This document shows, in pieces, positions 8,101 to 58,262 of a stretch of 64,000 nucleotides of DNA (the first letter of the stretch is position 1; the number at the start of each line of letters is the position of its first letter). Source of the DNA: Lampris incognitus (lineage: Eukaryota; Chordata; Actinopteri; Lampriformes; Lampridae); contig NC_079222.1 of the NCBI RefSeq assembly GCF_029633865.1, positions 30,748,936 through 30,812,935 on the forward strand, written 5' to 3'. The notes beneath the pieces were generated by a model that saw nothing but the letters and a program-made list of their open reading frames with translations, had not been told where the DNA came from and did no database searches. The position numbers and the translations under genes are program-made.

Positions 8101-10125
8101 AACCCACCTCTGATGCTCCTGGCCTTACTCCCCTTCCACCTGGTCTCTTGCACACACAGTATATCTACCTTCCTTCTCTCCATCATATCAGCCATCTCTC
8201 TTCCTTTACCAGTCATAGTGCCAACATTCAAAGTTCCAACTCTCACCTCCACACTCCTACCCTTCCTCCTCTCCTGCTGCCCCTGGACATGCCTTCCCCC
8301 CTCTCCTTCTCCTTTGCCCAACAGTAGCATAGTTTCCACCGGCACCCTGCTGGCCAGCAGTATCTGTGGCGGCCGTTGTTAACCCGGGCCTCAACAGATC
8401 AGGTATGGAAACTTGATTTATGATCCACATATCTGATTAGGCAAACGTTTTACGCTGGATGCCCTCTCTGACCCAACTCTCCCCATTTATCTGGCCTTGG
8501 GACCGGCACTAAGAATGCACTGGCTTGTGCATCCCCAGTGGCTGGGTTGGGTCCTCCAATAGGATAACAACCCAAAACACAGAGCTAAAAGCACCCAAGA
8601 ATGGATAAGAACAAACCATTGGGCTATTCTGAAGTGGCCTTCTATGAGTCCTGATCTGAATGCTATCGAACATCTTTGGAAAGAGCTGAAACTTGCAGTC
8701 TGGAAAAGGCACCCATCAAACCTGAGACAGCTTCAGCAGTTTGCTCAGGAAGAGTGGGCTAAAATACCTGTTAACAGGTGTAGAAGTATCATTGAGAGCT
8801 TCAGAAAATGTTTGATCGTAGTGATTGCCTCTAAAGGTTGTGCTACACAATATTTGGTTAAGGGTCTCATCATTTTTGGTCCATGCCATTTTCATTTGTT
8901 TTATTATTTACAATATCATATTGAATAGAAAATTAAAAGCAAAGTATATGAAATAAACACTGGTGGATGTCAACTACTTTTGTCAGTTTCAAGTTATTTC
9001 AGAGAAAATTGTGCATTCTTCGTTTTTTGTGGAGGAGCACCAACAAATGTGTCCAGGCTATTGTAGAATATCTGTGTAGAATAAGCAATAATTCATCTCT
9101 TTTCACAGCTTCTTTGTTTTATTCCATGACATGCCAAAGCCATGCAAGTACACATGACAAAATAACTTCTAATTTCATCACTTTTCAGGTGGAATGAAAC
9201 ATTTCAATGAGCTGTAAGGGGATCATGTCTGTATTGTGTGTTGTTGGTAAATGTGTTTATTGTGTTTTATTCTTTTTCAGGTACCACAGAAACTACCTTA
9301 ATTGAAGTGCTTGCACAAAGAAGCAATGCTCAGCGTCAGCTTATTGCTAATGCCTACCAGAAGGCAACAGGAAGGGTACATGGACAAACATTTATCCAAG
9401 TTTACTTTCATTCTTTAATTAGTATTGGATATTGGATGAAGACAAACATGTCTTCATCCAATGAATGTGGAGAAGTTTCTATAGAATAGAAATGTGGAGA
9501 AGTTTCCATAGAATAATGGTGCTTTCCAACCTTTTTCTTCCACTGTTTGCCAGACATTAATAGCTGACCTGGAGGGTGATACCCGCGGAGACTTTGAGGA
9601 TGTGCTTGTTGCCTTGGTAACACCTCCTGCTGTTTATGACTGCCGAGAGGTCATTAAAGCCATCAAGGTGAAATTTGTTGAATGAAGTTTAAGATAAATG
9701 TTTCAAATTTTTATCCTTGACTGAGTAGGATGCAAATATACTTGCATGTACACCTTTTCAGCAAACTTGTGTAACATCAGCACATTAGTGCTAACTTATC
9801 CTAAGTGTGCAAGACATAGTGTATTTGCCTGTGTGTATCCCATAGTAGCTTTACTTGTTTAATGGAGTAAGAAGATGGATGATATGCAAGTAACATTATT
9901 TGTGGGTGGCGCAGTGGTTAGCGCAGTCGCCTGACAGCAAGAAGGTCCTGGGTTCGAGCCCTGGGGTAGTCCAACCTTGGGGTCGTCCCAGGCCGTCCTC
10001 TGTGTGGAGTTCCCATGTTCTCCCCATGTCTGCGTGGGTTTCCTCCGGGTGCTCCGGTTTCCTCCCACAGTCCAAAGACATGTAGGTCAGGTGAATCGGC
10101 CATACTGAATTGCCCCTAGGTATGG

Positions 10126-15878: not shown

Positions 15879-18800
15879 TGATGGCTTTATTAATGTTGCT
15901 GTAACCTACTCCTACACAAGTCATCAAGACTTTGTCTCCACCCTTCCTCTCATCTTCTGAAGGCTTCTGTGTCTCTATCTTGAACATGACCTGGAAGAAA
16001 TCTTGGATATGTCTGAGGAACTCAATCCTGGAGAGACAAGATGTGCAGGGAAAAGAAAAAGAATAAACAGTGAGAAAAATATAGTGACTAACAAAGAAAA
16101 AAAGAGGCAATGATTTTTTTTTAAAATCATACAGTGTTAATGGATGGTAGATCAAAACCATTTGTTGTATAAGAACCTGGTCTATGAGAACCTTTTGTCA
16201 GTTAACTGACAAAAAAATTAAAGTACAACAAAACATGACCCATCTACAACTATTGGGGGCAGGAAACACACCCATAAAGTACAAAACGATATATAAAAGG
16301 TGTCGCCTACAGCAGAGACCTGTGTATTTTGGGTTCTAATATTTAGGGATAATAAACTGACTTGACTTGATTCGGCCCTGTCAATCCATGTCATATCATC
16401 GAAGGCCACCCCCCCCTTTTTTTTCTCCCCAACTGTACCTGGCCAATCACCCCGCTCTCCGAGCCATCCCGGTCACTGCTCCATCCCCTCTGCCAATCCA
16501 GGGAGGGCTGCAGACTACCACATGTCTCCTCCGATACATGTGGAGTCACCAGCCGCTTTTTTTCACCTGACAGTGTGGAGTTTCGCCAGGGGGACATAAC
16601 ACGTGGGAGGATCACGCCATTCCCCCCAGTTCCGCCTCCTCCTCCCCAAACAGGCACCCCGACTGACCAGAGGAGGCGCTAGTGCTGCGACCAGGACACA
16701 TACCCACACCCGGCTTCCCGCAGACACAGCCAATTGTGTCTGTAGAGATGCCCAACCAAGCTGGAGGTAACGTGGGGAATTGAACCAGCGTTCCCCGTGT
16801 TGGTAGACAACCGACTAGACCGCTATGCTACCTGGACGCCCCCTCCATGTCATATTATTGAAGGCCGTGTCTAACCTGTCCGGCATGCATACGACCTGAA
16901 TCCCTTCAGCCATAATGCTATCAAATCAAACCATTATGTAATGACAACTTACATAATGATAAGGGCAGGTACAAGACTGCAAAAATGCAACAGTTTAAAC
17001 AAATTATCAAAGTTTCCTGGACTTCTTAGGGTTTAACATGAATTTACTGCAGAGCCATGTTACATTCATCCATGCACACCCATTAGGCACCCGACTGCAG
17101 TCAAGGACATCTGATTTTGCCAGATGAGGAGGGGTGTATTGCGATGGCACTGCCAATCTTCAGTTATCATAGTACTGTACTTGAGAGGGACACAGCACCG
17201 GTACCATGATAACTGAAAATGGACAGTTCACAGTCCATAGGCCAACTCCACTTTATTTACACTAATACCAAAAACAGCTTAACAAAGCACAATTGTTCAA
17301 CATTGTTTAAACATGGAATACATTTCGATGGAAGAATGGGAGCCAGCTGCCCCGCTTGATTTCTCCACTGGCGAGCTGTGTCACAATAAAAATGTCAGTT
17401 CCGATAATGTACAAAACACATGCTCGTGTACTGAAGCACAGCAGGCCGGGATTGTAAGAAAACATGAGAAACTGTGGCTAAAGTTGATGAAGAATAACAC
17501 AGACTGGGATTTTTGTTTGTTTTTCCATCCCTGTTTATTTGACCAGTGCTTCCTGCCCAGCAGTGGAAAGAGAACTTTGGAACACTGTTCACTGCCAGTA
17601 GAGGAGCTGTACAAGAATAAACAGCATCTGGGGAACTCTGTATTTTTATTTTTATTTGTGAAAGTAGCCCGTCCATAGAGAATGGTTAATAAGGGACCGT
17701 TTCTTGCAGTGGAACAGGGTGTTGGACCAACACGGACGAGTGTGTATATATTCATGATGGTCTTACGTGTATGGAGAGAGGGGTCCGAGCAGCACCTTGG
17801 ACACGTCTTGTGGGCCCAGGATCATGAGGAGCAGTGCAAGGCTCTGATTGGTCGAATCGACACAACCACCCTAAAAGAGCAAAGGGAGAAGAGAGAGAGA
17901 CCATGTGCATCAGTGACAAAAACAACACAAAAATATGTCACTTTATCAAAGGCACTCAATTACCCCATGAGAGGGGATCAATATCTTCCGTACAGATAAC
18001 CACATACGATCTGAAAAACACACCAGCGTTCTGCGAGAGGGGTCTTGGCTGGAGGTTATCATATCCTTTTAGGTCTGAACTTGAAATCGGGCTACAAAGT
18101 CCCTTTCCTCACCAACCTAAACCATACTGCTACAACCGATAAATAGGGACTTGTAAAGAAAGAAAGATACCAGACAAACCACTATTTTGAGTCCTGAGCC
18201 AACGTTAGCAAAATTATGAAACACCTTTTCTTTTAATTACATTAAATTAATTACATTTAATTACAATTATTTTATTACAACTTCACAAACATGAACCGTC
18301 TGATCCCACTTTAAGTCAAGTGTTAATGCTCCATTTTGAATTAAAGGGATGGTTTTGTGTATGTGCAATCAGTACTGATGAGTAATTTAGACTGAAGCAA
18401 CAAAGTCCTCACTGTGTACTGTATTAACAGAGAAACTGGTGCTGTCCTGCTCAGAGTCTTCCCCACAGCACCTACATGTACCAGAATGCATTGCATGAAA
18501 ACCTCTACTACATCATCATCCATAAAATCCTCTGCGCTAGTGTTGTGGGATGTCGTCTACACCATCGGACACGCAGTTTAATCAAAAGAATGAGGATGTG
18601 TTACTGAACAGCATCTTTAGAGTATATCAGAGAATTAGAAACCCTGCTAGGTTGTAGTTTTTCTGGCCACCAGCTGATATCACGATACATTGAGTAAATA
18701 AAAATCTCTATATAACAGCAGCATGTTAACTTGCTATTACAAATAATTATTTACAAATGTGTGTGTCATGGCTGTTTCTGGTGCTTAAATGTATGTGTGT

Positions 18801-21800
18801 CATTCAGGGGGAACAGGGTAGCTCCACGACAAACAAACAATGAACTTGTGAAATAAATCAGCCCAACCTCAGATAAGAAAGTAGATAAATTTACCTCCAA
18901 AATGATGTAATTGTTCTCAGTAAAACATGCTGCTTTGCCTACGACATGTACAGAATCACGTTCACGTTCTACGTGTGATAACTTTTTGCTCTGCATTGTG
19001 TGTTTGAAAGGAGTCATTTAACTGGTGCTTGTGGTTGTACCCCCCCCCCCCAAGTATATCATTGGGCGAGTGGGTGTGGTGCTGAGTTAGCCTAACTGGC
19101 GAAGACTCACACCAGAGCCACAGAGAGAGCTGAGGAATGCGGTAGGGATGCACAGCCTCAGCTCTCTCCCTGACCAGAATTTTAGTAGGGGTTTATTTTC
19201 AGTCTTTTAATGGTTTTAACATTTGCATTTTAATCAACTTTCTATTTAAATTAACAGGCTGTTGTTGCCCATTTTTTAACATTTTTTGTTTATATCTTAT
19301 ACTTTTACATTTTAAATTCTTAAATTAATTTAATTCATTTTTCTTTCATCACCTTATTTTAATTGTTTTTATCGTAATACTTGTTTTATCGGCTTTAATT
19401 CTGTATGTTTTAATTATGCTCTTGTGATTTTATCCTGACTGTGTTTTACCTTGTTCTGTGGAGCGGATCTGGAATTATAGCCTATATTTTTATTGTATTT
19501 TGTTGTTTTATCTTGACTATGTGCATTATTTTATCCTGTTGTGTAAGGCACCTTGTAACGTTGTTTAGAAAGGTACGATATATATCAAGTTTATTATTTA
19601 CTTAGCACTGGTTTTGCTCTTAGATGCTTGTTTAGATGTACTTATGACCTCTGATGACTCGTAGTTCTCCTGATTTCCTATGTTAAATGCACTTATTTTA
19701 AGTCGCTTTGGATAAAAGTGTCGGCTAAATGACTGTAACGTAATGTAATGTCTTTATGCATGCTCAATAATTCAGGTAAGAAAATCAACGAAAGTTGAAT
19801 CAGCTCATCTGGATACATTTACTGACAGATGGCAGATCTGTCAATAAATGTTGCATCCAGATGAACTGATTCAACTTTCTTTTATTATTAGCACTGACCA
19901 TCTCTGTTGGTGTCTGTCTTTGCCGGGGACTCCCAGTCGTGGTGCAGATTTGCCACAATCATGTATCAACCGCTACTTTGTTGCCTGACTCCATTACAAA
20001 TCCTCTGAGCAATACATTCAAAATAATATTCAGCACTGTAAATAAAAGAATGAAGCTCTTACTGTGCTGGCTTGACTGCGTTGTGTGGGATGACATGAAT
20101 TCTTGAAGAACGACCTAAAAATGACCTGTTGTTTTCCCCATGTACAACTAGAAATTATCCTCTTCCGAGCCGCCCCGATCGCTGCTCCACCCCTTCTGTC
20201 GATCCAGGGTGGGCTGCAGACTACCACATGCCTCCTCTGGTGGAGGAGGAGGCACATGTGGAGGCACATGTGGAGTCGCCAGTTGCTTCTTTTCACCTGA
20301 CAGTGAGGAGTTTCACCAGGAGGACGGAGCACATGGGAGGATCACGCTATTCCCTCGAGTTCCCCCTCCCCCCCAAACAGGCACCCCAACTAACCAGATG
20401 AGGCGCTAGTGCGACCAGGACACATACCCACATCCGGCTTCCCACCCACAGACACAAACAATTGTGTCTGTAGGGACACCCGACCAAGCTGGAGATAACA
20501 CAGGGAATTGAACCAGTGATCCCCATGTTGGTAGGCAACAGAATAGACCGCCCCGCCACCCGGACGCCTGAATTTTGCTTGTTTTTCTTTTTAAATCCAA
20601 GTTAATACTCCCCATTCAATGAATACACTGAAAGCTTTTGTCAAAATAATTAATCTGACAATATAAAAATGTAGAGACTGTGCACACTGACGTCACAATT
20701 TTCTTCTGCCCTGTGAAGCGAACTCTCAAAAGTACACAGATAGCATGCTTATTAAGGTTTTGGTAACAAGATGCCCCAGTGGCATTTCCTCACCTTTGGC
20801 CACTGCATCTGTCATCAATGACCTCTAATGTTCAATATGTACTGACTACTCCCACAACTCGAAACACACCAATCACTGATGTCATTTCTGCCATCTCCTT
20901 TCTAATGTTTTTCTGACTAGCCCACCTCCCTCCTCCATGTTCCTTCCTTCCTACGAACCATTATCATGCTCTCCAGCCTTCTGTCACAACATCAAGCATC
21001 TTTCCCTGCCTTCCCTTTTAGCCTTTCATCCATCTGAGATATTAAAGAGGACAGAGGTTCAGTGACTCTCCACATACTGACACCACAGGTACAACTATAG
21101 TAACTATGCACCTACCGCTATCGGGAAGATTAAAGCTCGAAATATACCCCACAATAGTGCCGGACAATAATGGAAAATATCAAGATAACCGCAAAAAGTT
21201 CACACAGTATAAAGAGGTATCACAATATCTGCTTACATGGGCACGGATACCATATTTAAGAATCAAACTGAGGTTTATCACTTTGAACTGTTTGGTTAAG
21301 TATAACATCAAACCAAATCTAGCTTTCAAATAATAATCCATCACATATTTCAGATCTCCTTTTGGGAGACGTTTTAGGTAAAGAATTATCATTATCATTA
21401 ATTCAGACAACAAAAGTGTTCATTACAATGATGCAATCTTAATCTAAGAGTAATGTGAGACGGTCTGATGGATTAAACAAGGTCAGCTTCTGACAGTGTA
21501 TGTACGTCTAGTGTTGTCAATTACGAATGTGGCCCCATTTTGGTCCCTTAAAAAGCAGCAAGCCATTGGGACAGCTGGTCAGCAGGAATATGATTCAATT
21601 AGATAATTATATAAATGAAACAATGTCAACATTGTCTTCTGACGTTAACAATGCAGGGATTATTTTAACTGCATTCCTTCTCATCAAGTTTAAATAAATG
21701 ACATCCGCTGCCCAATTGCACCATCTAACTGCAGCAATTTTTCACGACTTCAACCGTTTTGTTTTTTGAAACCAACTTGGCAACTTTCATTAGTAATTTT

Positions 21801-35600: not shown

Positions 35601-38600
35601 AACTCCTCTTCCTTCTGTTCCCGTCTGAGTTTAATCCATTTTAAGGTTATATATTGAATTTATCTCTCTAAATTTAAACTTTCAAAATTTTACCCTGAAG
35701 TAGATGACAAATGTGACTACTGTGCACAATCCCTAGCTGACCAAAGACACATGTTCTGGTTATACCCTAAATTGACAAGTTTCGGGTCATCCTTTTTTTA
35801 AATAATTTCTGAAGTGGAATTGAGGTCCTACCTGGTTTAGGGATAGGTATTTTTGGAGTGCCAGACTTAGTTGAAAACTTCACATCGATGCAGCTAAATG
35901 TTATTGCTTTTATTTCTCTTCTTGCTCGCAGAAGGATACAGGAAGTCCCCGGCACCCCCTTCATCATCATCCCTGATAGAGAACACGATGATGTTCCTTA
36001 AACTTGATACAATTCAATTTGCCTTATCCAGGTCAGCTCAGAAATGCTACTCTACCTGGCAGCCCCTCTTATTTATTTTTTTTCAAAGATTGGCCGCCTT
36101 TATTGGCTAGTGATAGCAGAGAGAGAGAGTTAGGAAAGGCAGGAGAGGGGATGACATGCAGCAAGGGGCCCAGGCCGCTGCGGTAAGGACTAAGCCTTAT
36201 GTGGTACACGCTCTACCATGTGAGCCACCGGGGCACCCCTACCTCTTATCTTATTTTGATCATCTGACACTGCTTCCCTATGATTAAGACCACTTGTATT
36301 ATTTGTATTGTATTTTTATGCATGCTCAATAATCCAGGTAAGAACATCAAAGAAAGTTGAATCAGTTCATCTGGACACAATGTACAACAATGTACATCTA
36401 TCACCACCTTACAATGCCTTGACCGCAAACATTCCCAAATCCTCTATGAATCGTACCCATGGCCACTGAAACTCTAGTTAAAGGTCACACCCATATTTGC
36501 ATATGAAACTGGTCGTTGATGTCGGTTGTTATGCAACTGTATTGTTTATAAGGGTGGGGATACCTGCAGTCAGTTTAGACTAAAGAGGTCACTTTGATGA
36601 GTGATTAAATGTTTCTCTCAATAAACGTGTCCACATGAACTGATTCAACTTTCTTTGATATTTGTTTTACATGTCTTAATTTTAATTGGATGCTGTGTAT
36701 CAGTGTAGACTGCTATACTCATGGCATATGGGATATATTTTTCTCCAATCACTTAAATGTATGACATCATAACGTCATAACATCATCTGACCTGGAGGCC
36801 ACACTGGTTAAACTGACAAGCGATCGAACCTCAAAGATAACGTTTCATTCCAAGACGCTGGCTGAGTTCTGAACTTCAGTTGAGAGGGAATATCCACAGC
36901 TATCCAATGCTGCAGTGGACGTACTGATCTACCTACTTATATGAAAGGACTTTCTCAGCACAGATATGCATTAAAAATAAGTACAGATTGTGACTGAACA
37001 TGGAGGATGATCTCAGAGTGGCCGTCTCCAAAATCAAACCCAGACTAGACTTATTTTGCTCCAAGCATAGTGTCCACCCATCTCATCAGGTAAGTTTAAC
37101 GTTAACTAATTAAATTAATATTATGGTTGTTAGGCTATTGTGTTCTTTTTTGGGGGGGTCCCCCCTTTTTCTTCAAATTTACTTGGCCAATTACCCCACT
37201 CTTCCGAGCTGTCCCGGTTACTGCTCCACCCCATCTGCCGATCCGGGGAGGGCTGTAGACTACCAGATGCCTCCTCCGATACATGTGGACTCGCCAGCTG
37301 CTTCTTTTCACCTGACAGTGAGGAGTTTCGCCAGGGAGAGGTACCGCATGGGAGGATCACGCTACCCCCCCCCCCCAGGTCCCCCTTCTCCCCGAACAGG
37401 CACCCCGACCGACCAGAGGAGGTGCTAGTGCAGTGACCAGGACACATACCCACATCCAGCTTCCCACCAGCAGACACGGCCAATTGTGTGTGGGGACACC
37501 CGATCAAGCCGGAGGTAACATGGGGATTCGAACTGGCGATCCCAGTGTTGACAGGCAACAGAATAGAACGCTATGCTACCCGGACACCCTGCTATTGTGT
37601 GCTTTTGTGTTGTCATTATACCTGTGTTTAAATAGACTTGGCCTATTAGTGCGTGCGTGCACAAACGTTTGTATGCTTCAACCACCTCCAAGGATAGTGG
37701 GCGTCGCGAGTCTCGGCACCGTTATTTTGGGGGCTGGGGGCTGAAAAGTTTGGGAACCTATGATCTAATGGGCAACGGAAATCTTCAAGATTGCCACTTT
37801 AGACTGGTCGATAAATCTTTACCAGAGTTCATGCCTCTCTGTGATTTCCATGACTTTTCCAAAACCTTTCCAATTTTTTTTTGTAACTTTTTCAATGGCC
37901 TGGAAATTGTATTTTCAAATTTACTGACATTTCCAGGTTTTTAATGACTGTATGAACCATGAAAATGGATATCACCACCAGATGATGAAAGGGGGAGCAG
38001 TATGGACAGGTCAGTAAAGACCCAAAGTCATCTTCAATCATATTCAACTAGTCAAAATCACATTTATAGAAATGACTTAGAAGGCTGAATCTAAGTGTAT
38101 CACATAGTCATGTTTATCTAGCATACCAACAGTAACAGTGTGTGTTATGTTGTAAAATCTTGCTTAAATTAATGATAAACAAGACCACAGCAGTTCGGCG
38201 GACCCTACTAGCACAACAGTGGGCAGCTATATCGTATGTCGTGTATTGTACTGATTGTAAAGCCCTTTGGGACTACCTTGTGATTTTGGTCTATACAAAT
38301 AAACTTGACTTAGGGCTGGGAAACAGTTCAATATGATCATTTATCATCTTTCAATGGTATTGTGTCGGGATGACATTTAGATTTTGTGGTATTGTGATAC
38401 ACAATTGTGTAGTTTAAAACGGCTTTGTGACTGTCTGTGAAAGGTCCTATATAAATAAACTTTACTTACTCAATCATATGTTACAGATAAGTCACAGAAA
38501 TGCATTTTGAATGATCTGGGTGGCACACAGCTCTGTAGCAGGGCGGATAAGTGACTGAGGTGTGCACATCTGGATAAAAGCATGACAATGGGTAAATGGG

Positions 38601-41604: not shown

Positions 41605-56721
<15,117 letters not shown>

Positions 56722-57119: not shown

Positions 57120-57562
57120 GAAGGTATACCCCAACTTTATAAACAGCACAGTTGCATAGCAACCAAAACCAACGATCGGTTTCATATGCAAATTACCATT
57201 ACCATTACCTAGAGTTACAATGGCCATGTGCTATTCACTAAGGATTGGGGAATAGCATTCTAAAATGGCCATTGATATACTCTTAGACTCCCCCCACCCG
57301 GTTCAGGGATGGTCATTCCCTCTTCACATAGATGGCCTCTTTGACTCCCCACTTGATGTGGACGATGTGTTGTCGGTGGAATGTGGTACGTCCTGAGATT
57401 TAATTGTAACCCAGGTGTCATCCACAAATCTGAACCAGTGGCTAAGGTGGTGTCCCTGGGCAGGACATCAGAGCCCTCTTTTCCACTTCCTCCATATACA
57501 AGTTGGCCAGTGCAGGTGAGACTGGGGAACCCATAGCACACCCATGCTTCTGCCTATATATA

Positions 57563-57743
57563 TCCAAAGGAGTTGAATCAAGTGCAATTGGACTTGGTAT
57601 ACTTGGTCTAGAAAGGCACGAACTGAGGAAGCCTCTTGGATGAGAGGCGAAACGTCTTCACGGATATATACCAAGTCCAGTTGCACTTGATTCAACTCCT
57701 TTGGATAACCATGACCTGGATGAATGACAACAATCACAGACAT
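57563..57743 (+). mobile_element. PLE family 2 palindrome nested in the family 1 element, with target duplication
   Basis: Outer words AAAGGAGTTGAATCAAGTGC and its complement frame the insert. GCCTATATATA occurs at 57552-57562 and again at 57744-57754, which marks an 11-bp target duplication and shows that family 2 moved after family 1. Confidence 0.8.
57623..57664 (+). ncRNA. hammerhead-ribozyme-like fold, PLE family 2
   Basis: CTGAGGA (57623-57629) fits the core CUGANGA. One extra A follows, then a perfect 6-bp stem II (57631-57636 with 57643-57648, loop TGGATG), then GAAAC from 57649. Stem III is short (CGT/ACG, loop CTTC) and the position that should be U before the cleavage site is G, so activity is doubtful. 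Stem I could form from GGACTTGGTATA upstream and its complement downstream. Confidence 0.35.
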
Positions 57744-58136
57744 GCCTATATATAGTACTGCCCCCTGTATGTGAAGTACATGGACTGAAGACAAAGCTTC
57801 AGGAGCAGAAACACTTGGTCAGTGTTAAGGGTGGTACTTTTGCTAAGGGTCGGGTCAACCTGTAATCATCGGGACTACCCTCCACTGCTTCATCAACAGG
57901 AACACACACGAAGAGAGACACAACATCGTAAGAGACTATTGTTCCATCCGCCTCCATAATGCTGTCCCTCACCTTATCCACAATGATTGCACCTATTCCC
58001 CAACCCTCTGTGAACAGTACACATGGCCACCGTAACTCTAGTTAATGCTCACAGCAATTTGTATATGAAACCGACCGTTGGTTTCGGTCGCACATGTGCT
58101 GTGTATAAGAGTGGGGATACCCGCAGTCAGCTGAGA

Positions 58137-58186
58137 CTGATGAAGTCACTTAGATGAGTGATGAAACGTTTCTCCCACTGAACGTT
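58137..58186 (+). ncRNA. hammerhead-ribozyme-like fold, PLE family 1, best preserved copy
   Basis: CTGATGA (58137-58143) matches the canonical core. One extra A is followed by stem II (58145-58150 with 58157-58162, loop TAGATG, closed by a G-U pair), GAA (58163-58165), then stem III with A at 58166 pairing T at 58185 (ACGTT/AACGT) and T at 58186 in the cleavage-site position. Stem I is weak: two pairs, an internal loop, then GCAG/CTGC. Other copies at 46 kb, 49 kb and 53 kb keep core and stem II but vary in stem III. Hammerhead motifs are known from PLEs of other organisms. Confidence 0.45.
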
Positions 58187-58262
58187 TTGATGACCTGCTT
58201 CCACTTTCTGGGTTTTTCTCGCCTGGACTGTCGAGCGTGCATCAAGACACTAGCTGATGTGT

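Follow-up and report, generated by a model that had tools for sequence, protein, structure and literature searches.

Copies of the motif and their chance expectation

Do the repeats in a 64,000-nucleotide stretch of the Lampris incognitus genome (NC_079222.1, positions 30,748,936 to 30,812,935; called the window below) carry a hammerhead ribozyme, and where would the RNA be cut? In our reading, the window very probably holds worn copies of two related repeats, each with a minimal type I hammerhead. Family 1 would be the terminal repeat (pLTR) of a Penelope-like element (PLE), and family 2 is most likely another PLE terminal repeat, as the shared motif suggests. Judged from their sequence, they are unremarkable examples of a ribozyme type described before, a find that is real but expected, with a predicted cut site that is corrected here.

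A sequence scan of the window identified a motif with the order CTGANGA, one extra base, a 6-bp stem II, a 6-nt loop (TRGATG) and GAAAC. The motif is intact in six copies from the two families: 58137 (+), 49698 (+), 46073 (−) and 53210 (−) in family 1, and 57623 (+) and 44386 (−) in family 2 (Table 1). Stem II is GTCACT/AGTGAT with a G-U closing pair and the loop TAGATG in family 1, and GCCTCT/AGAGGC with the loop TGGATG in family 2. The core is broken in two further family-1 copies, 49428 (−; CTGAATT) and 36580 (+; CTAAAGA...TAAAT), leaving 6 of 8 copies intact. The latter lies in the family-1 repeat 36409-36662, which was detected by BLAST of the window against itself; the same search showed that the family-1 piece 57122-57246 stops short of the motif, and returned several short family-1 tail pieces besides.

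An earlier, sequence-only reading of this DNA had already listed the six copies with an intact motif, and overlooked the one at 36580. Its copy at 49434 corresponds to the motif at 49428, which is without the core, and the inverted family-2 copy that it placed near 44393 does exist, with its motif at 44386.

Table 1. Coordinates of the predicted hammerhead copies, their proposed stems and the probable PLE remnants in the window
Feature	Position	Strand	Description
Family-1 minimal hammerhead (predicted)	58137..58170	+	CTGATGA, extra A, GTCACT/AGTGAT, loop TAGATG, GAAAC, GUU; predicted cut 3' of 58170
Stem I 5' strand (GAGA) of the 58137 copy	58133..58136	+	pairs with TCTC 58171-58174
Stem I 3' strand (TCTC) of the 58137 copy	58171..58174	+	immediately past the predicted cut
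Stem III of the sequence-only reading, with T58186	58166..58186	+	ACGTT 58166-58170 / AACGT 58181-58185; letters present, unsupported as a working stem III
Family-1 hammerhead (predicted)	49698..49731	+	intact core, H17 = U; sense, between two adenylate kinase exons
Family-1 hammerhead (predicted)	46040..46073	-	CTGAAGA and GAAAC retained; cleavage triplet GCA breaks the 15.1-16.1 pair
Family-1 hammerhead (predicted)	53177..53210	-	state as in the 46073 copy: core retained, GCA breaks the 15.1-16.1 pair
Family-1 copy, core broken (CTGAATT)	49395..49428	-	one stem II mismatch; predicted 7-bp stem I (one G-U)
Family-1 copy, core broken (CTAAAGA, TAAAT)	36580..36613	+	
Family-2 hammerhead (predicted)	57623..57656	+	CTGAGGA, extra A, GCCTCT/AGAGGC, loop TGGATG, GAAACGUC; predicted cut 3' of 57656; stem I GAA/UUC
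Family-2 hammerhead (predicted)	44353..44386	-	core as in the 57623 copy; stem I with 2 of 3 pairs (AAA/UUC)
Family-1 terminal repeat (probable pLTR)	45990..46230	-	adjoins coding remnants 47462-46184
Two ORF remnants (47462-47085, 46531-46184)	46184..47462	-	taken to be PLE by a known motif; no Pfam family
Degraded reverse transcriptase/endonuclease, probably of a PLE	57245..58041	-	'GCAMGSPVSPALANLYMEE', 'FVDDTW', 'VKEAIYVKRE'; RT pieces (GSPVSP, FVDD) and endonuclease end

A structured scan of the window (CTGANGA, 0-1 base, a stem of 5-8 bp with G-U allowed, a loop of 4-8 and GAAA) matched just the six intact copies; when the window was dinucleotide-shuffled 400 times, 5 of the shuffles held any structured match (0.0125 loci on average, never more than one). 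The loose pattern CTGANGA..GAAA with no stem, found 13 times against 4.5 expected and equally often in 1 of 100 shuffles, is less telling than the structured motif. Because copies inside one family are not independent, two families is the meaningful count. A covariance model built from the eight copies recovers those eight, as it must, and two weak extras with E of 0.11 and 2.5. The former, at 57514-57559 (+) with 16.6 bits, is likely a chance match.

Probable Penelope-like element setting

The probable family-1 pLTR at 45990-46230, which holds the 46073 motif, adjoins two ORF remnants, which we take to be a PLE reverse transcriptase (RT)/endonuclease, one terminal stretch being presumably the end of a GIY-YIG endonuclease. 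In the degraded remnant at 57245-58041, one piece has a weak match to RVT_1 (19.0 bits against a cutoff of 29.6; E 0.0012). This remnant is flanked by inverted family-1 pieces, 57122-57246 (−) and 58002-58209 (+), and BLAST places a family-2 piece (about 57567-57745), with the 57623 motif, nested inside it. Pfam and PDB searches with the ORF fragments returned no PLE family, the matches being a weak one to DUF7237 (E 0.15) and three PDB entries (E 0.12 to 1.8). The PLE setting proposed earlier for family 1 is probable, with repeats beside putative RT/endonuclease remnants, an RVT_1 match below cutoff and an endonuclease end recognised by its motif. For family 2, no coding region was found in the window.

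Pfam models ADK and ADK_lid matched above cutoff at adenylate kinase exons near 42.5 and 49.2 kb (+), and just below cutoff at 55.0 kb; a likely last exon, with a known motif, is at 56.6-56.7 kb (+). The copies at 44-53 kb sit between the exons of this gene (42494-56720, +), with 49698 (+) in sense, and the 57623 and 58137 copies are about 0.9-1.4 kb beyond its last stop. Two family-1 repeats, 49347-49529 and 49597-49779, are placed head to head, 67 nt apart and 86% complementary, which explains an Rfam match to MIR821 (70.3 bits, gathering score 249). The long hairpin that these repeats would make could bury the sense motif at 49698.

The 44386 and 57623 copies of family 2 are alike until about 86 nt beyond the predicted cut (44353 to 44267), while BLAST matches among family-1 copies stop sooner, about 43-50 nt beyond it. 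In PAc, the Poseidon PLE of the green anole Anolis carolinensis published in 2024, internal RT starts are located at 111-118 of the ORF, as given in the available part of that paper (PMC11167929), and by our count these lie 82-89 nt past the PAc cut. Given the closeness of the two distances, the shared end of the family-2 copies may be a PLE 'tail'.

Pairing of stem II

The pairing of stem II is retained despite sequence change between the families, as had been claimed before: 47 of 48 cells are paired over the eight aligned copies, and 2 of 6 pairs are altered on both sides between families with pairing preserved. In the eight-copy alignment, pair 18-33 is UA in six copies and CG in two, pair 20-31 is AU in five, UA in two and broken in one, and pair 17-34 is GU in six and GC in two. 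The covariation score of stem II, which represents a single contrast between families and not many events, was matched by none of 500 shuffles and none of six slid versions. Two doubly changed pairs, as seen here, were also reached in 118 of 500 shuffles, and three further pair types in 352 of 500. Within family 1, stems I and II have no covariation beyond the shuffles; when stem I was allowed a 2-nt bulge in this family, one pair was changed on both sides and the whole was no better than shuffles.

In single-sequence folding by RNAfold, stem II forms in both family-2 copies and in the 58137, 49698 and 36580 copies, and partly in 49428, and the minimum is without stem II for 46073 (a 59-nt stretch) and 53210. 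The loop-II hexamer URGAUG is common to both families, and the stem beneath it has been rewritten by paired changes. One speculative and rather unlikely explanation is that the hexamer is a docking or protein-recognition site, which would let the PLE protein or a partner hammerhead activate a ribozyme that is unable to close stem III on its own.

Predicted cleavage site and stem I

In order to locate the cut, we looked for a stem I of 3 bp at 41 offsets, counted from the first G of GAAAC (4 to 44), in nine rows, namely the eight window copies and the published PAc sequence. A cut directly after GAAACGUN, GAAACGU(C/U), gives 26 of 27 Watson-Crick pairs, and the runner-up among the 41 offsets gives 18 of 27; random triplets pair 3/3 in 1.7%. 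Stem I reads AGA/UCU in all six family-1 copies, GAA/UUC in 57623 and CCU/AGG in PAc, and in 44386 it reads AAA/UUC with 2 of 3 pairs. Judged by stem I, the predicted cut falls 3' of 58170 in the 58137 copy of family 1 and 3' of 57656 in the 57623 copy of family 2. The likely cut is therefore 16 bases upstream of 58186, the site proposed first, and the weakness of stem I noted in that proposal comes from the misplaced cut. With the cut set 3' of 58170, stem I of the 58137 copy is GAGA/UCUC.

Together with the CUGANGA/GAAA core in 6 of 8 copies and the kept pairing of stem II, this stem I supports the hammerhead reading. The core, U16.1 and an allowed H17 are all retained in 4 of 8 copies (58137, 49698, 57623 and 44386). 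U16.1 and H17 are present in 6 of 8 (GUU, GUU, GUU, GUC, GUC and CUC), and the 46073 and 53210 copies have GCA instead.

Cleavage 3' of 58186 would presuppose a hammerhead of type I whose stem III has 5 bp (ACGTT/AACGT). The letters of this stem, its A-U closing pair and T58186 are indeed present in the 58137 copy; over six family-1 copies 22 of 30 cells are paired (73.3%, against at most 56.7% for slid versions), and RNAfold of 58120-58190 yields a hairpin that contains the stem. However, this hairpin also sequesters the core GAAA, 225 of 500 shuffles reach the same percentage of pairing, and covariation scores higher when the stem is slid by 2. Of the 6 family-1 copies, 4 retain the A-U closing pair and 2 have lost it, and a canonical full stem III followed by stem I was not found, the 58137 copy being without a 3-bp stem I there. 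A cut at 58186 corresponds to offset 24, and among the offsets tested the 58137 copy has 3/3 pairs solely at 8 and 44. Offset 24 is also outside the best eight over the nine rows and so has at most 11 of 27 pairs, although 58186 had been claimed for the 58137 copy only. We regard this alternative as very improbable and retain the cut after GAAACGU(C/U).

Reduced stem III and a possible double hammerhead

With the cut placed after GAAACGU(C/U), just A, C, G, U and H17 stand between GAA and the predicted cut. ACGU is contiguous in 4 of 8 copies. Being contiguous and without a loop, it can not pair within one copy, so cleavage would need a dimer or the protein of the element. ACGU is also self-complementary, which allows a 4-bp stem III to form between two copies, and such an ACGU/ACGU stem would be the geometry expected of a double hammerhead.

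The mechanism we propose is as follows. Stem II and the CUGANGA/GAAA core would fold within one RNA, with stem III reduced to the contiguous, self-complementary A15.1-C15.2-G16.2-U16.1, and the scissile bond after GAAACGU(U/C) would be flanked by a stem I of few pairs, AGA/UCU in the first family and GAA/UUC in the second. The hammerheads of tandem pLTRs, or of two RNAs, may then form a double hammerhead with a common ACGU/ACGU stem III, or alternatively the protein of the element may aid RNA folding. A multi-unit transcript would in this way be cut near the pLTR/ORF boundary.

In none of the five RNAs tried is the energy minimum a monomer hammerhead (stems I and II) or a double hammerhead, and in all of them the double fold is well short of the best dimer fold. 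For example, the nearest-neighbour energies of 57623, in which tertiary contacts are outside the model, are -15.9 kcal/mol for the double hammerhead, -17.4 for two monomer hammerheads and -28.3 for the best dimer fold. Among the five RNAs, the double fold is better than two monomer hammerheads in PAc alone (-15.5 vs -15.0 kcal/mol).

Comparison with known hammerheads

Minimal PLE hammerheads were reportedly described by Cervera and De la Pena in 2014 and by Lunse et al. in 2017, and the latter are said to have found about 150,000 variants with diminished stem III. An extra base right after A9 is found in the hammerhead of Chrysanthemum chlorotic mottle viroid, which belongs to a viroid RNA and not to a retroelement.

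The closest known system is the hammerhead of PAc. In the part of the paper available, PAc RNA contains CUGAGGA-U-GCCUGC-CAUAGAU-GUGGGC-GAAACGUC^AGG, in a layout of our own (PMC11167929). Like the window copies, it combines CUGANGA, one extra base and a 6-bp stem II (by RNAfold in PAc), and it ends with the GAAACGUC of family 2, has no stem III and has a 3-bp stem I directly past the cut. Since PAc carries an extra U at the same place (PMC11167929), the extra base after the core is not new, although it had been regarded as marking a variant. UAGAUG is also found at loop II of PAc, but its last G is paired in the predicted fold, unlike in the window copies. The letters of stems I and II differ, the PAc loop has 7 nt against 6 in the window copies, and in PAc the ORF start codon is within the motif. 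Cleavage of PAc RNA is protein-dependent, whereas in the window copies cleavage is a prediction.

According to the same portion of that paper, C3G or G8C abolishes cleavage of PAc RNA and the double change partly restores it; RNA cleavage takes place only with the protein present, and endonuclease mutants still support it (PMC11167929). Insertion of PAc in vitro is reported there to be independent of the ribozyme, with no effect of ribozyme mutation, and no RNA-seq reads start or end at the cut site in the sections at hand (PMC11167929). The last two results would fit a hairpin that is no working ribozyme, kept in the repeat by shared descent and perhaps serving PLE reverse transcription by binding protein or as a template element, and so would the loss of the core or U16.1 in 4 of 8 window copies. 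However, the diverged families have kept the letters of a hammerhead, namely the core flanking stem II, the ACGU that precedes the cut and a complementary stem I, which leaves such an explanation with a slim chance. A review of 2020, in the passages available, called the role of hammerheads in PLEs unknown (PMC7761336).

The hammerhead reading we prefer also agrees with wider descriptions. In the available passages of two reviews, PLE pLTRs carry minimal type I hammerheads without helix III, which may act as dimers (PMC6155905, PMC7761336), and the window copies are like them in being of type I, in probable PLE terminal repeats and with a reduced or absent helix III. They also resemble the retrozyme hammerheads of amphibians (axolotl and other salamanders) in the short helix III; in the part of that source available, retrozymes are efficient only as dimers, and their hammerheads are in short tandem repeats of non-autonomous elements (PMC7229834), against probable PLE terminal repeats here. 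A text search of a paper library with six 16-mers of the motif gave no match.

Two repeat families are added to those with a predicted PLE-type minimal hammerhead, and the place to assay for cleavage is corrected to the position right after GAAACGU(C/U), with the RNA as a dimer or with protein.

Database models

The expectation that ordinary models may miss the motif is right for Rfam 15, which overlooks such hammerheads: a search of the window at E ≤ 5 gave 23 matches, none of them a hammerhead, and with the limit relaxed to E ≤ 10 none was returned from the sequence around 58137 or around 57623. Rfam did give weak matches to sR3 and sR17 at 58126-58183 (19.3 and 16.7 bits), as a C/D-box snoRNA-like repeat (UGAUGA ... 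CUGA) might. However, these scores are far under the gathering scores (41 and 36), and the UGAUGA that they use, located where stem II ends (AGUGAUGAAAC), is missing from family 2 (AGAGGCGAAAC), whose stretch has no snoRNA match in Rfam. We judged the sR3 and sR17 matches to be chance. The probability of a snoRNA-like origin is close to nil in our estimate, and the minimal hammerhead is kept as the reading of both families.

Scans of viral contigs and of genome contigs gave one match in a viral contig and one in an uncultured bacterium. Neither has CTGANGA ahead of the matched part, and both were judged to be chance matches.

Other features in the window

A type-P1 twister ribozyme match is located at 8473-8550 (−), with 38.2 bits (below the gathering score of 67.2) and E 8.9e-5, in what looks like the 5' region of an RTE-type LINE. 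A review, in the passages available, places truncated twisters at the 5' ends of RTE elements (PMC7761336). Matches to mir-1298 and mir-1252 at 19781-19888 are below their gathering scores. Since they coincide with family-1 tail pieces in inverted arrangement (19790-19831 and 19836-19880), genuine microRNAs are unlikely there. Nearby, a UnaL2-type LINE 3' end was matched at 19684-19738 (+) with 45.4 bits, below the gathering score of 55. A clear mir-101 precursor is found at 17151-17225 (−), with 86.6 bits against a gathering score of 60.
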